Source: Saprospiraceae bacterium
GTDB lineage: Bacteria; Bacteroidota; Bacteroidia; Chitinophagales; Saprospiraceae
Assembly (NCBI GenBank): GCA_027488935.1
Contig: JAIYAP010000072.1
Coordinates: forward strand, 1-61,916
Length of the DNA: 61,916 nt
Direction: 5' to 3'
The position numbers were made by a program, and so were the translations under genes. This document shows positions 32,477 to 37,075 of the stretch, piece after piece. Under the pieces are notes generated by a model, which did not search any database, was not told the origin of the DNA, and saw only the letters and a list, made by a program, of their open reading frames with translations. How positions within the stretch are numbered: position 1 is the first letter of the stretch; each line of letters begins with the position of its first letter.

Positions 32477-33004
32477 TTAAGGTTCCTTTAAAGTAGCGTT
32501 ATCAAAAGCATAATCGCAATGAACAACCAATCTAATGGGTGCAAAACGGATCATTCCGCCAATATGGCCTTCATCGGCGCCGAAAACATCGGTCTGGATC
32601 TTTGCTTTTCGGATCAATCCTTGTCCGCGGTACCATTTGTAACCCCGGGCGCCTACGTTGGGGCCGGATACGCTGCCCACTGGTTCATCTATTAAGATGG
32701 TGCATTGTTTGCATTGCTCGAGCGCCTGTACAGGATAATTTTGTTCAAAATGACCCACAATCGTACTAAAATCGTTCGCTTTTTCGGTAAAAACGATATC
32801 GCCAGATACTTTTAACACCGTACCCTCCAACATTGCTTTAACGTTGCAGCGCCAGTCTCCCAGCCCATACGTGTCTCCATCGCCTTTGGTTACTTTATCC
32901 GCTGTAATGTTGGCATCCGGAATTTGGTATAAAAAGACCGTTTGAGCGGAACCGGTGTAGTTTCCGACAAGTAAGCAAAACAAGAGGCGCAATTTAGTCG
33001 GCAT
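32477..33004 (-). CDS. Hypothetical secreted protein
   Basis: 175 residues from an ATG at 33004. A short signal peptide (MPTKLRLLFCLLVGNYTGSAQ) precedes a beta-rich domain with a CKQCT pair and a conserved-looking GARGYKWYRGQGLIRKA loop. It is divergent from the gasdermin operon and ends 58 bases before the next minus-strand gene's start. I see no recognised domain. The cysteine pair could form a disulphide in the periplasm. Confidence 0.65.
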   Translation of the reverse strand: MPTKLRLLFCLLVGNYTGSAQTVFLYQIPDANITADKVTKGDGDTYGLGDWRCNVKAMLEGTVLKVSGDIVFTEKANDFSTIVGHFEQNYPVQALEQCKQCTILIDEPVGSVSGPNVGARGYKWYRGQGLIRKAKIQTDVFGADEGHIGGMIRFAPIRLVVHCDYAFDNATLKEP

Positions 33005-33115
33005 GGGTAAAGAATAGATGTAGAATGATTAGAACAAGTCTATTGAACGAAGGTTTTGGGTACGTACGCATAAAATCTATTAAAAAAAGCAGGTAACCAT
33101 GTAATTAAAATAAAA

Positions 33116-33123
33116 TATCTTTG
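33116..33123 (+). promoter_or_regulatory. -7 promoter element of the gasdermin operon
   Basis: TATCTTTG, a perfect TAnnTTTG, 23 bases before the first ATG at 33147. No clear -33 TTTG precedes it, which may mean weak basal transcription or an activator. It is followed by A/T-rich leader sequence. Confidence 0.5.
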
Positions 33124-33146
33124 CCAGAAATCAACCCAATTTTAAG

Positions 33147-34124
33147 ATGTATTCAAATGAGTTGCAGTCAAATCTTCGTGTACTGATTAGCGCTAATAAA
33201 ACGGATGTCGCACTAGAAGAACTTTCCAAAATATTAAGTGGTAATCCCGATTTAGGCGATCAAGTGATCTTGTTGCGCGGAAGATGGTCGGACGGTAAAC
33301 GTCAATTCAACATGGGTTTGATTGATTTTGAAGATTGGGGCCGTATTCAAAGCCGGGTGAATTATGCGCTGTTGGAATTGATTTCCTCCATCGGTCGAGA
33401 TGAGCATTTAAGTAAGACGGCAGAAACGGTGATCACAAACAAGGTGGTTGAAAGCCAGTTGAATTATGGAAATGACCGTCAACCCTATGCCGCCAACCAG
33501 GAACCTGCATCAAAAGTCAAGCGCATTTTGTTTATTTCGGCCAATCCCAAAAGCCAGGCGGTGTTGCGCTTTGGAAAGGAAATCAGGGAAATCAAAGAAG
33601 CATTAGCCGATCAATTGCGGGAAAATACCTACGAATTTATAGATGAGCAAGCGGTTCAGCCGGATGAAATATTGAAACTATTGCGCCGCCACCAGCCAAC
33701 GATTTTACATTTGTCTTTGCACAATGATAAAAAAGACGGATTAGTTTTTGAAGATGTAAATGGCAATGAATATCCTATTTCTACCGATATTTTTTCGAGT
33801 TTTATTGAATTAATTAATGCGAAAGAGTGTGTTATTGAGTGCGTTATTCTCAATTCTTGCAACTCCGTACAACACGCTTCTTCCGTTTCCCGATTTGTAC
33901 GCTGTGCCATTGGTATGAAAGATTTTATGCCCGATGATGCTTCGGTGGCTTATGCGAAGGGTTTTTACGAATATATTAATGCAGGGGAAGGCTTCGATGA
34001 TGCACACAAGTCGGGAGTGATCCAATTGAAGATTTTAGCCCAACGTTTGGATGCCGGTTTGCCTACACCCTTGTCGGAAATTCCCGTGAAATTTTCAGTT
34101 AAAGACGACCCCACCCATGGCTGA
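33147..34124 (+). CDS. EAD11-CHAT protease (gasdermin operon, first protease)
   Basis: 325 residues from an ATG at 33147. Residues ~5-82 match effector-associated domain 11 (EAD11): LRVLISANKTDVALEELSKI, then VILLRGRWSDGKRQFNMGLI and INYALLEL-type end (VNYALLELISS). EADs are adaptors that bring immune-type effectors together. After a linker (~85-123), residues 125-300 form a CHAT caspase-like domain: KRILFISANPKSQAVLRFGK, LHLSLHNDKKDGLVFED with the catalytic His at 192, and VILNSCNS with the catalytic Cys at 238, then DFMPDDASVAYAKGFYE. It is predicted to be an active cytosolic protease. Its stop overlaps the start of the next gene by 8 bases, and the third gene is a gasdermin, its probable substrate. 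Confidence 0.9.
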   Translation: MYSNELQSNLRVLISANKTDVALEELSKILSGNPDLGDQVILLRGRWSDGKRQFNMGLIDFEDWGRIQSRVNYALLELISSIGRDEHLSKTAETVITNKVVESQLNYGNDRQPYAANQEPASKVKRILFISANPKSQAVLRFGKEIREIKEALADQLRENTYEFIDEQAVQPDEILKLLRRHQPTILHLSLHNDKKDGLVFEDVNGNEYPISTDIFSSFIELINAKECVIECVILNSCNSVQHASSVSRFVRCAIGMKDFMPDDASVAYAKGFYEYINAGEGFDDAHKSGVIQLKILAQRLDAGLPTPLSEIPVKFSVKDDPTHG

Positions 34125-34734
34125 TAAAAAGCGTATTTTGTTTTTGTGCTCGCTTCCAAAAGACGCCAATGTGCTGCGGTTTATTGATGAAATTGGAGAA
34201 ATTGAAGACCGACTCTTAACCGGGCAAAACAGGAATGAGTTTGATTTTCTACCCAAATTAGCCATTAAGCCCGGAAATTTGCGGCAAGTAGTGACCGGCA
34301 CGCCCGGAGCAACGCCTCCATTTATCATTCATTTTTCCATGCACGGCGATAAAAACAATGGCTTGGTATTTTCGGATACCAAAGGAGGAGAAGCCTTTCA
34401 ATCGGCAGAATACTTTTTACAATTATTTGATACGGTGGTGAACGGTTTTGATGTAAAAGTGGAAGGTTTAATCTTCAACGTTTGCCATTCTTTAGTATTC
34501 GCGGAAGATTTAAAGCGTTTTGTGAAGTTTAGTGTAGGTGTCAACGATTTCATTCCGGATGATGCATCGATTGCTTTTTCGAAAGGATTTTACGGCTCCT
34601 TGTTCGATGGTTGGGATGAGAAAAAAGCGTTTGCAGCGGGGCAAGATGCCATCATGGAATGGAAAGCTGCGAACAATATCGAGGAAACCGATGGCGGAAT
34701 CCTCTATGAAAAACGATTCCAATTATTTAGTTAA
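34117..34734 (+). CDS. CHAT protease without adaptor (gasdermin operon, second protease)
   Basis: 205 residues from an ATG at 34117, overlapping the upstream gene by 8 bases. It consists of a CHAT domain alone: KRILFLCSLPKDANVLRF, HFSMHGDKNNGLVFSD with catalytic His 76, FNVCHS with catalytic Cys 123, and DFIPDDASIAFSKGFYG. It is clearly paralogous to the upstream protease (shared KRILF, GLVF, PDDAS-A-KGFY), a tandem duplicate that lacks the EAD. The dyad is intact, so it is probably active; it may act as a second cleaving enzyme, be activated by the first, or regulate it. The gasdermin gene follows after 33 bases. Confidence 0.88.
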   Translation: MADKKRILFLCSLPKDANVLRFIDEIGEIEDRLLTGQNRNEFDFLPKLAIKPGNLRQVVTGTPGATPPFIIHFSMHGDKNNGLVFSDTKGGEAFQSAEYFLQLFDTVVNGFDVKVEGLIFNVCHSLVFAEDLKRFVKFSVGVNDFIPDDASIAFSKGFYGSLFDGWDEKKAFAAGQDAIMEWKAANNIEETDGGILYEKRFQLFS

Positions 34735-34767
34735 CAACCCATTTTTCAACCTAACCTTACTTGCCTC

Positions 34768-35556
34768 ATGTCCATTAAAGAAATGCTGGAAGCCCAGGGC
34801 TTTTTAAGCGTCGCGCTTCCAAATGCGGAAATCAGCCCACTTCAAATTTTGCAAAAAAGCGATCATGGTCTTAAAAGGCTCAATGACCGCATTAATTTTC
34901 TATTTGAAAGTTCCCAAGCCGCGCCACCACCCGTTAAAAAGGATATTCCGGTTGCCAGTATCAACGGAACCTTTACCTTGACCATGGATATCAATACCAG
35001 TTTGAGCTTTTTGGAGGCATTAAAAAATCTAATTGGGATCAACCTGGCGCTCAAATTTGAATATAAAAACGATGATCAGTTGGTGTTTGCTTTCGAATCG
35101 CCCACCATGGATGAGATTACCTCTTTTGGCGAACTGGATCGTTTTATGAACTCTTCGGTTGTGGTGGATGGCAATTTTGGTGATTTGCTGAAGTCCGACG
35201 ATTTTTATGTGATAACTGCCACGCTAAAAAGTAAAAAGTTTTCGGTCGGCATTGTAGATACCAGCGTCCACACAGGGGGAATTGATTTACCCAATATTAA
35301 AGGCTTGCTTGAATCGGACCTTACCCTTGATCGGAATAAAAATGAAAAACGCGGTATCAATTACGAAGGCGATGTTCCGTTGGTTTTTGGCGTACAGGCA
35401 GCCCGGATCCTTTATGATAAGCCCGGTATTGCTGGTTTATTTGGCAAAAAAGGCACATTTAGCATAAAAGAAGTAGCAGGATTGATCGTTCGCTCCTCCG
35501 AGGCAGTACCAATTGATTTGTTAAAAACAGCAGATCAAACGTTACGGCTGGATTAA
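34768..35556 (+). CDS. Bacterial gasdermin (pore-forming cell-death effector)
   Basis: 262 residues from an ATG at 34768. Bacterial gasdermin features seen: an N-terminal MLEAQGFLSVALPNAEISPLQ block (IxPLQIL, residues 17-28), LKRLNDRINFLFE, ASINGTF-type strand, the central strand-rich body (FYVITATLKSKKFSVGIVDT) and the conserved GDVPLVFGVQAARILYD (201-217). The length is right for the family. Family members are held inactive by a short C-terminal peptide that caps the pore-forming body; cleavage by an adjacent protease releases it and membrane pores kill the cell, limiting phage. Here ~20 residues follow about R242 and could be that inhibitory peptide. Unlike members with a palmitoylated N-terminal Cys, this protein has no cysteine at all. 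The two upstream CHAT genes are the likely activators. Confidence 0.87.
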   Translation: MSIKEMLEAQGFLSVALPNAEISPLQILQKSDHGLKRLNDRINFLFESSQAAPPPVKKDIPVASINGTFTLTMDINTSLSFLEALKNLIGINLALKFEYKNDDQLVFAFESPTMDEITSFGELDRFMNSSVVVDGNFGDLLKSDDFYVITATLKSKKFSVGIVDTSVHTGGIDLPNIKGLLESDLTLDRNKNEKRGINYEGDVPLVFGVQAARILYDKPGIAGLFGKKGTFSIKEVAGLIVRSSEAVPIDLLKTADQTLRLD

Positions 35557-35599: not shown

Positions 35600-37075
35600 A
35601 TGTTTACCCGCCCGTCCATTCGCATGTACCTTGTCAGTGCCCGTATCCTCGCGTGTGCGCTGTTCGTGTACATGCTCCTGCGGGCAAACCTGATCGGTTT
35701 TACCCACGACGAGAGCGCCTCTTTTTTGGGCTTGATTCATGTGCCCATGTATGACTTGTTTTTCGATAAAAACAACTGGGGTACGGCCAATAACCACCTG
35801 CTCAATACCTTATGCATGCAGTTGGGCATGTATTTATTTGGTCCGCAGGAATGGGCCTTGCGATGGGGGAGTTTGTTGGGCGGTTTTTTGTTTTTGCGGT
35901 ATGCCTGGCGCTGGTCGGCCTTGTATCGTGCTCCGAATACGCCCGATTTTTTAGCCGCTTTTGCACTGCTGAGTTTACAACCCTTTTTACTGGAGTTTTT
36001 TTCGTTGGCGCGGGGGTATGGATTGTGTATTGGACTGGAAATGGCGGCCCTTTTTTACTTTTTTCGTTGGATAAAAGAACAAAGCGCCTGGGATCTGTTG
36101 CGTGGGTCGCTTGCATTGAGTGTGGGCATTTTAGCAAATTTTACCCTGCTGGATGTGCTGGCCGTGTGGTTGTTCGCCGTGGTATTCGCCTATTATCTAT
36201 CCAATCCTGCTGCGTTTTCGCTGTTTAAGGCCTTGCGCTTGCTGGTGATACCCATGATCCCGGTGGTTGTTACGGCGGCCCTGATTTTCCAGCCCATGCG
36301 ATGGATTCGTGCAAATGGCGAATTCGAATGGGGCCCCGTTTCCTTTTGGGAAACCTGGCGCGTTTTGTTGGAACACTATTTTTTCAATCCTTTCCGACCA
36401 GCGATGATCGGCAAAGTATTGATTGCGGTATTGGGTACGGTCGGTTTTTTGGGGATGATGCGCTTGATGATTAAATGGTTCCGTAAAGCAGGGGTGCAAC
36501 ATTATGCTGCGTTATTCTATGCGGTTGTACTTACGGTAGGGACGATGCTCGTCACCATTTTGCAACATATCTTGTTGGGTGCCAATTACTTGATTGGTCG
36601 TACGGCCTTATTGTTTTACCCGCTGTTGTTTGTTTTACTGGTATTGTTTCTATTGGAATGGACGCAAAAAACAGGCAAAAAAACAGGACTTTGGGCGTTT
36701 TCGATCTTTGCCTTGGTCAATTTTTGCGCCAGTGCAAACTTGTTTTTTAGTCGGGAATGGCGGTATGATGCCAATGTCAAAGCGGCCATAGAGGAGTTGG
36801 GCCGCTTTGACACCCGGTACAAAAAAATAAATTACGGGGTGGGCTGGAAAAACGCACCTGCTACCCAGTTTTATCAACAGTTTTATCAGCCAACACGGCA
36901 AGTGCAGTATTTTGAGCCCGTCTTATACGACCATGGTCACAATGACGTTCAATGGTTTATGGAGCATGATTTTGATTATATTTATGTTTTAAAAGAATTT
37001 GAAAGTCAAATTTCATCTAAGTATTTTTTGATACATTCATATTCGCAAGGCGGCTTATATCGGCGCAAGCCTTAA
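35600..37075 (+). CDS. Integral membrane GT-C glycosyltransferase-like protein
   Basis: 491 residues from an ATG at 35600. About ten membrane helices (for example PMIPVVVTAALIFQPM and LLFYPLLFVLLVLFLLEWT). The first extracytoplasmic loop has the acidic motif GFTHDESASFLGL typical of the ArnT/PMT (GT39) fold, where Asp/Glu bind a polyprenyl-phosphate sugar donor, and FFSLARGYGLCIG follows. It probably transfers a sugar to an envelope acceptor. The gene starts 43 bases after the gasdermin gene but has its own near-consensus -7 element (TATCTTTA at 35587), so it is probably not part of that operon. Confidence 0.8.
   Translation: MFTRPSIRMYLVSARILACALFVYMLLRANLIGFTHDESASFLGLIHVPMYDLFFDKNNWGTANNHLLNTLCMQLGMYLFGPQEWALRWGSLLGGFLFLRYAWRWSALYRAPNTPDFLAAFALLSLQPFLLEFFSLARGYGLCIGLEMAALFYFFRWIKEQSAWDLLRGSLALSVGILANFTLLDVLAVWLFAVVFAYYLSNPAAFSLFKALRLLVIPMIPVVVTAALIFQPMRWIRANGEFEWGPVSFWETWRVLLEHYFFNPFRPAMIGKVLIAVLGTVGFLGMMRLMIKWFRKAGVQHYAALFYAVVLTVGTMLVTILQHILLGANYLIGRTALLFYPLLFVLLVLFLLEWTQKTGKKTGLWAFSIFALVNFCASANLFFSREWRYDANVKAAIEELGRFDTRYKKINYGVGWKNAPATQFYQQFYQPTRQVQYFEPVLYDHGHNDVQWFMEHDFDYIYVLKEFESQISSKYFLIHSYSQGGLYRRKP

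Follow-up and report, generated by a model that had tools for sequence, protein, structure and literature searches.

The cues that switch bacterial gasdermins (bGSDMs) on are called a major open question in a passage of PMC9612521, and a three-gene locus of a Saprospiraceae bacterium raises this question in a form of its own: what would two CHAT proteases, one of them carrying an EAD11 domain, do upstream of a single gasdermin? The locus lies in the window, the whole stretch of 61,916 nucleotides (nt) that was analyzed, which is a full contig (JAIYAP010000072.1) of a host genome of 6.28 Mb in 88 contigs (assembly GCA_027488935.1, here G000). Its genes are P0001 (EAD11-CHAT), P0002 (CHAT) and P0003 (gasdermin). 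We consider it likely that they form a bacterial gasdermin cell-death operon, in which the EAD11-clustered CHAT protease would open the gasdermin, directly and/or via the second CHAT, leading to pores and lysis.

The identity of P0003 as a gasdermin rests on sequence profiles. It matched NCBIfam model NF051890 at 129.5 bits (curated cut-off 100) over positions 3-203 of 203, and the PADLOC bGSDM model at 142.9 bits. Searched against PDB sequences, P0003 alone retrieved 7n51 (E 7.8e-13), and a profile that included it retrieved 7n51, 8sl0, 7n52, 9v2s and 7n50. Two further traits of bGSDMs were seen here: with 262 amino acids (aa), 20 of them past a candidate cut site, P0003 is predicted to end in a short C-terminal peptide in place of a large C-terminal domain, and protease genes adjoin it, i.e., the two CHAT genes directly upstream. 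As the original prediction had noted, gasdermin-plus-protease operons are an established type (PMC9079055, and passages of PMC9612521).

A Pfam scan of P0001 gave EAD11 (57.5 bits, cut-off 26, residues 6-82) and CHAT (34.9 bits, cut-off 24, residues 117-286); it gave no match for P0002 and none for P0003. Depending on the alignment, P0002 is 32-36% identical to the CHAT half of P0001. An AlphaFold model of P0002 (predicted local distance difference test score, pLDDT, 70; predicted template modeling score, pTM, 0.72) was used for Foldseek, where the top match was the SAVED-CHAT filament 8tl0 (E 1.7e-13, template modeling score 0.74), followed by a C11 protease and, more weakly, by caspases. With a profile of ten CHATs including P0001 and P0002, 8tl0 was the sole match among PDB sequences (E 1.2e-27). 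The dyad residues are aligned in both proteases, and H76 and C123 of P0002 are invariant in 10/10 aligned sequences. P0001 and P0002 are thus predicted, from sequence and model, to be active CHAT cysteine proteases that have a caspase-like fold with a His-Cys dyad. The family calls of the original prediction (EAD11-CHAT, CHAT and bacterial gasdermin) held in Pfam, Foldseek, NCBIfam and PADLOC, the dyads H192/C238 and H76/C123 stood at the positions it had claimed, and its compact layout was confirmed, the open reading frames (ORFs) of P0001 and P0002 overlapping by 8 nt and a gap of 33 nt separating P0002 from P0003. That one CHAT arose by recent duplication of the other is disfavored by the 32-36% identity and by the lack of tree support for a sister grouping of P0001 and P0002, although such a grouping was not rejected (approximately unbiased test, p-AU 0.142).

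The three genes recur in a sister metagenome-assembled genome (G419, locus L002), where one contig carries the second half of P0001, P0002 and P0003, and another carries the EAD11 half of P0001, preceded by the upstream flank seen in the window. Synonymous and non-synonymous differences between the window and G419 numbered 16 and 4 in the EAD11 part, 12 and 1 in the C-terminal part of P0001, 28 and 6 in P0002, and 56 and 16 in P0003. Because these differences are mainly synonymous, the three ORFs appear to be real, constrained genes. Loss of the three-gene order in related genomes would have spoken against the original prediction: the CHAT-CHAT-gasdermin order is kept in G419, split there across two contigs, but was found only there, and it is the two-gene pair of CHAT and gasdermin that recurs more widely.

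When P0003 was searched directly in five genus mates, one matched (G419), and in the family sample G000 and G419 were the only members of the genus that matched a gasdermin alignment (A1). Overall, A1 matched 32/398 genomes of the family sample. A bGSDM match was found in 17/396 genomes of the order sample (14 above the cut-off), and the gasdermin alignment matched 3/395 genomes of the phylum sample, where the matches other than the window were two short proteins of a different type. P0001, with up to five candidates scored per genome, matched at least 91 of the 398 family-sample genomes. The gene downstream of the operon (35600-37075) is present at >50% identity in G000, G419 and G404 alone among 42 genus genomes; G404 has it at the start of one contig and an EAD11-CHAT at the end of another. 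A search of the G404 assembly for a gasdermin found none, and G404 could have a related operon, as far as these sequences suggest.

Eight gasdermins have a neighboring CHAT of the P0001/P0002 family, namely those of the window, G419, G448, G376, G477, G586, G443 and G331. All seven family-sample gasdermins above 140 bits adjoin such a CHAT (four are in the query alignment), and the eighth, G331, came from the order sample. Five CHAT-linked gasdermins went into A1, so that their high scores arise by construction; those of G477, G586 and G443 were found with A1 and are not in it. The next-best family-sample gasdermin (G598) has no such CHAT beside it. The gasdermin partner is an EAD11-CHAT protein in the window, G419 and G448, a weak TIR-EAD11-CHAT in G477 and a weak TIR-CHAT in G376 (both TIRs under the Pfam cut-off), and in G331 a protein of 546 aa whose CHAT match scored 23.9 bits (cut-off 24). 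In G586 (L175:371-5132) and G443 (L176:1582-6310) it is a chain of 1068 or 1025 aa, with the order LRR-Roc-COR-EAD11-CHAT and LRR-Roc-COR-CHAT, respectively, and each locus has an FGE-sulfatase-domain gene; the CHAT of these two is absent from the Pfam list and is based on the match to P0001 and on a profile made here. Both resemble inflammasome-like single chains, an LRR-Roc-COR ending in a CHAT-like region.

Among the eight loci, two CHATs are present in the window and G419 only; the six others have one each, two of these lying on contigs of ~7 kb. The original prediction had regarded an EAD11-CHAT followed by an adaptor-free CHAT as unusual. Beside a gasdermin this stood (2/8 loci), but the tandem by itself, as read from domain matches, is not unique to the window lineage, because in L128 (3575-5246) a CHAT lacking an EAD comes after an EAD-CHAT whose EAD11 scored 25.9 bits (cut-off 26), with no gasdermin in the 10 kb of this locus.

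The two proteases also share an active-site residue with other gasdermin partners. Immediately before the catalytic His, 9/10 CHATs in bGSDM loci have Leu, Val or Met, and 65/70 others have Gly, the five exceptions among the latter being one Thr and four sequences without the His; P0001 and P0002 both have the gasdermin-type residue. This comparison covered 80 distinct CHAT domains from 94 loci and the window, a subset of the P0001 matches that cover the CHAT half, plus related loci. The ten gasdermin-linked CHATs include two near-copies from G419, and proximity to a gasdermin was judged within flanks of 1.5-3 kb or the locus extent, so that a more distant gasdermin would escape. In the CHAT tree, 7/8 distinct gasdermin-linked CHATs, including P0001 and P0002, fall in one clade (support 98/97), or 8/9 rows when the P0002 of G419 is counted, the partial G419 copy of P0001 and the CHAT-like protein of L183 having been dropped. 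The contrast between Leu/Val/Met and Gly is therefore inflated by the relatedness of the gasdermin-linked CHATs. The branches are long, and a rerun without the three longest rows retained the gasdermin-linked split (97/95). A single clade of all nine gasdermin-linked rows was not rejected (p-AU 0.347).

A candidate cleavage site was found near the C-terminus of P0003. Arg followed by Gly or Ser occurs in 7/8 CHAT-linked bGSDMs and in 1/33 others at 19-25 residues from the end, a band that was picked after the data had been viewed; with 18-26 residues the others rise to 3/33, and with 10-32 residues the counts are 7/8 and 10/33. The eighth CHAT-linked protein (G586) has Lys-Asp in its place. 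According to passages of PMC9612521, bGSDMs are cut following a Leu or Arg that lies ~20 residues short of the C-terminus, and the Runella gasdermin is cut after L247, with Gly next (PMC9079055), whereas P0003 would offer Arg at P1 and Ser at P1'. Given the conserved position and the reported cleavage, the bond between R242 and S243 is the predicted cut site, which would free ~20 residues.

P0003 contains no cysteine at all. The N-terminal Cys is palmitoylated in most bGSDMs and helps pore formation (PMC9079055, and passages of PMC9612521 and PMC12547243), and since P0003 has no cysteine, its sequence implies that this usual palmitoyl anchor is absent. We compared 41 distinct bGSDMs, with the weak or partial matches of G392, G149 and G439 excluded and starts chosen by script. 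A Cys within the first 15 residues was found in 31/41, i.e., in 2/8 CHAT-linked proteins and in 29/33 others. Because the N-terminal Cys is not universal in the family, the membership of P0003 stands despite its absence. We also considered whether translation might begin further upstream and thereby include a Cys, and rejected this: although the window and G419 both have an in-frame TGC two codons ahead of the ATG, no ATG, GTG or TTG occurs upstream of that TGC as far as the preceding stop. The in-frame codons just before the gasdermin start hold no Cys in G331, G586 and G443, and in G448 a Cys codon lies 11 codons upstream. Gasdermin-like proteins of 233-234 aa that lack cysteine and have a shorter C-terminus were also seen (L178:5462-6163, L179:5161-5862 and L051:47-751). 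No P0001/P0002-family CHAT was found at their loci, and they raise the question of how an inactive state would be kept.

What P0001 would respond to was approached through its EAD11. EAD11 was matched 19 times in the host genome, across 18 ORFs, which leaves 18 copies besides that of P0001. EAD-coupled systems often, though not always, have a cognate EAD in the same operon, and the EAD11 of P0001 is the only match on its contig. Passages of PMC7159879 and PMC8195603 propose that EADs bring effectors to core components via homotypic contact. Because of this proposal and the many EAD11 copies in the genome, an EAD11-bearing sensor encoded in trans would be the most economical reading. A Pfam scan covered ten ORFs from the host's EAD11 loci, of which eight contain EAD11, and the partners of EAD11 included FGE, trypsin with a weak TIR, a protein kinase and iSTAND (EAD11 there at 25.6 bits, cut-off 26); one EAD11 ORF adjoins an nSTAND1-FGE gene. 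The latter pair (L055:937-5291), and an EAD11-iSTAND fusion beside an AAA ATPase (L071:6253-8261), are candidate core systems for EAD11 effectors. No cognate for P0001 stood out in the host genome: the best-scoring match to its EAD11 was a protein of contig C34 beside an nSTAND1-FGE gene (33% identity), and C68b likewise reached 33%.

In the reading that we prefer, P0003 would be kept inactive by its short C-terminal tail. P0001 would be the receptor-proximal protease, with its EAD11 joining, like with like, an EAD11 sensor or platform whose gene lies at another locus of the genome; the resulting crowding would turn on the CHAT protease. Active P0001 would then cut the gasdermin itself and/or cut and activate the adaptor-free P0002 as an executioner. 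A cut after R242 would free ~20 residues, the N-terminal part would form pores though it lacks a palmitoyl anchor, and lysis would follow, most likely aborting a phage infection. The operon looks like a split form of a single-chain relative such as the LRR-Roc-COR-EAD11-CHAT of G586, in which case the front-end region (LRR-Roc-COR or weak TIR) would be handed to the sensor in trans.

Several observations weigh against this reading. The operon has no linked sensor, and the EAD11s closest to that of P0001 are in the EAD11-CHAT of G404 (58%) and in EAD11-TIR proteins of seven genus mates (43-49%; L186-L192, ~270 aa, TIR confirmed by Pfam in the two scanned). The host's other EAD11s are only 18-33% identical to it, and none comes from a protein of that near kind. 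Strong toxicity of the Runella gasdermin depended on the cysteine (PMC9079055) that P0003 lacks, and an AlphaFold model of P0003, built from two sequences (P0003 and its sister copy), reached a pLDDT of 28. The CHAT-linked bGSDMs do not form a clade of their own in the gasdermin tree, where they belong to a mostly unresolved group of 12 (93/92) that also contains G598 and three short proteins, and the CHAT-linked label needs three changes. The active-site signature has exceptions: the gasdermin-adjacent CHAT of G448 has the ordinary Gly, as does a weak CHAT-like protein (no Pfam match) beside a cysteine-bearing bGSDM in G461 (L183), which was excluded from the tree and the count. Finally, the order of initiator and executioner is presumed, both CHATs could cut the gasdermin, and the residue after the catalytic His is Asn in P0001, where P0002 has the usual Gly.

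How the two proteases would share the work is best weighed against these data. A two-step caspase cascade, in which a sensor-clustered initiator CHAT activates an executioner CHAT that opens an anchor-free gasdermin after Arg, in a split form of the G586-type chain, is plausible, and we propose it tentatively; that both proteases act directly on the gasdermin has about the same likelihood. In the latter case P0001 and P0002 would be subunits or redundant enzymes, e.g., a CHAT-CHAT heterodimer that P0001 docks to the sensor. In its favor, the 8-nt overlap of their genes would fit co-translation, P0001 has Asn after its catalytic His where P0002 has the usual Gly, and both proteases share the gasdermin-type residue ahead of that His and belong to the gasdermin-linked CHAT clade. 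Yet a single CHAT suffices in the six other loci, with the reservation that two are on ~7 kb contigs, and with the catalytic His and Cys intact in both proteins and P0001 strongly constrained, P0001 is probably no mere dock. We propose this arrangement as tentatively as the cascade; it overlaps with the direct branch of the preferred reading, so that our confidences in the two are not exclusive.

It is also conceivable, and in our view rather unlikely, that one CHAT alone cuts the gasdermin and the other cuts a different target, e.g., a regulator, giving the operon two outputs. The modest identity of the two CHATs and their unsupported (though not rejected) sisterhood would agree with this, and a precedent is described in passages of PMC11417357, where the CRISPR-linked protease CalpL cuts an anti-sigma factor. 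Against such a division, both CHATs share the gasdermin-linked residue, and no obvious second target gene lies within the operon. It is very improbable that the operon has lost its killing activity and persists as a decaying or silent remnant. The missing cysteine and the patchy presence (G000 and G419 as the sole genus matches in the family sample, with 4/5 directly searched genus mates lacking a match) could be taken that way, but synonymous changes exceed non-synonymous ones in all three genes, there are no stops, the dyads and a promoter-like element are conserved, and 6/8 CHAT-linked gasdermins lack the N-terminal Cys, so that its absence is not a decay of the P0003 copy.

Compared with known systems that pair a bGSDM with a caspase-like protease (Runella, Vitiosangium and Bradyrhizobium; Johnson et al. 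2022, as described in PMC9079055 and in passages of PMC9612521), the window shares a gasdermin recognized by sequence, the short C-terminal tail and a caspase-like protease in the operon; it differs in having two CHATs, one with EAD11, and a gasdermin without Cys. Passages of PMC9612521 already list CHAT proteases, LRR and FGE-type lectin genes as components of bGSDM operons. The four-gene bGSDM operon of Lysobacter enzymogenes (PMC9079055) likewise has more than one protease with its gasdermin, and mutating the second trypsin-like protease disrupts defense, which is a precedent for two steps; its proteases are trypsin-like, whereas the three genes of the window include CHATs. EAD-coupled conflict systems (Kaur et al. 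2020, PMC7159879; 2021, PMC8195603) share the fusion of an EAD to a caspase-like effector and the many copies of one EAD per genome in the passages that describe them; EAD11 goes unnamed in these passages, and PMC8195603 does not use the word gasdermin. No paper about the EAD11 domain was found in a literature search judged by titles and abstract starts. On the same basis, the top-listed papers, mostly open-access and without bioRxiv preprints, contained no link of gasdermin to EAD11 or another EAD and no tandem CHATs with a gasdermin. The closest solved fold to P0002, the type III CRISPR protein SAVED-CHAT (8tl0), is by its entry title a CHAT protease active as a filament, and it senses through a SAVED domain where P0001 has EAD11. 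SAVED-CHAT reportedly switches on a further caspase-like protease, which would be another two-step precedent; to our knowledge it has no gasdermin target.

Other loci varied in their proteases. No P0001/P0002-like CHAT was found by phmmer at the 14 other gasdermin loci examined from the order sample; five of them have a gene of 964-1290 aa adjoining the gasdermin, and 3/3 scanned encode Peptidase_C14. At L039:6720-11459, a 1290-aa chain of Amidase_2, Peptidase_C14 and a weak GDSL lipase, i.e., a cell-wall enzyme with a protease, adjoins a cysteine-bearing gasdermin. At L141:205-2962, a TIR gene (28.5 bits, cut-off 28), a non-specific DNA/RNA endonuclease gene and an EAD11-CHAT gene (its EAD11 found outside the Pfam scan) stand in series, which looks like an EAD-CHAT with a different killing output. 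CHAT-like domains apparently without the catalytic Cys or His were seen at L127:4670-6463, L197, L198, L200 and L224, one of them in a chain with pentapeptide repeats that adjoins an intact EAD-CHAT and three with an EAD-like region (own profile). They are possibly decoys or regulators, or the result of misalignment.

The features of the operon are collected in Table 1. The promoter element that the original prediction had placed at 33116 is present as TATCTTTG, a candidate Bacteroidota-type -7 element with the consensus TAnnTTTG. It is conserved in place in G419, and G404 has TACCTTTG there. Motifs of the TATCTTTG type occur in the window at chance level (57 found, 61.6 expected), as do the hits of a sigma-70-type scan (5 found, 5.9 expected). 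The membrane-protein gene at 35600-37075 was rejected as a fourth operon gene, its gap to the gasdermin being 43 nt here and 143 nt in G419. In 1-kb windows, G+C was 0.40-0.43 at 33000-35500 and 0.41-0.51 in the flanks examined, which is at most a mild hint of foreign origin. P0003 had no match when searched against phages, and one distant match in a plasmid search (Gloeothece, 23%). The Gloeothece protein (L173:7974-8930) is a distant bGSDM annotated as hypothetical, with a Cys at position 2, and lies ~5 kb from type III CRISPR genes. CHATs like P0002 were found in 47 plasmid records, the top ones annotated as SAVED, TIR, EAD1 or CHAT.

Table 1. Coordinates in the window of the genes and predicted elements of the gasdermin operon.
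Feature	Position	Strand	Description	Basis
TATCTTTG, candidate Bacteroidota-type -7 promoter element	33116..33123	+		same position in G419
P0001	33147..34124	+	325 aa; EAD11 and CHAT, dyad H192/C238, presumed initiator	Pfam, dyad positions, purifying selection
P0002	34117..34734	+	205 aa; CHAT without EAD11, dyad H76/C123, presumed executioner	homology to the CHAT half of P0001, Foldseek, purifying selection
P0003	34768..35556	+	262 aa; bacterial gasdermin (bGSDM), zero Cys	NCBIfam, PADLOC, PDB sequence match
R242-S243 codons of P0003	35491..35496	+	predicted cleavage site	R then G/S near the C-terminus of CHAT-linked bGSDMs
Predicted 20-residue C-terminal peptide of P0003	35494-35553	+		downstream of the candidate cut

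Altogether, these related gasdermins go with a single protease module, the front end of which is exchanged among relatives (EAD11 alone, weak TIR or LRR-Roc-COR), and the window appears to hold a split and doubled form of it. The locus offers a candidate cut site, an active-site residue that may mark the CHATs that are partners of gasdermins, and a gasdermin that would have to function without palmitate. It may also represent an initiator-executioner pair of caspases in bacteria.

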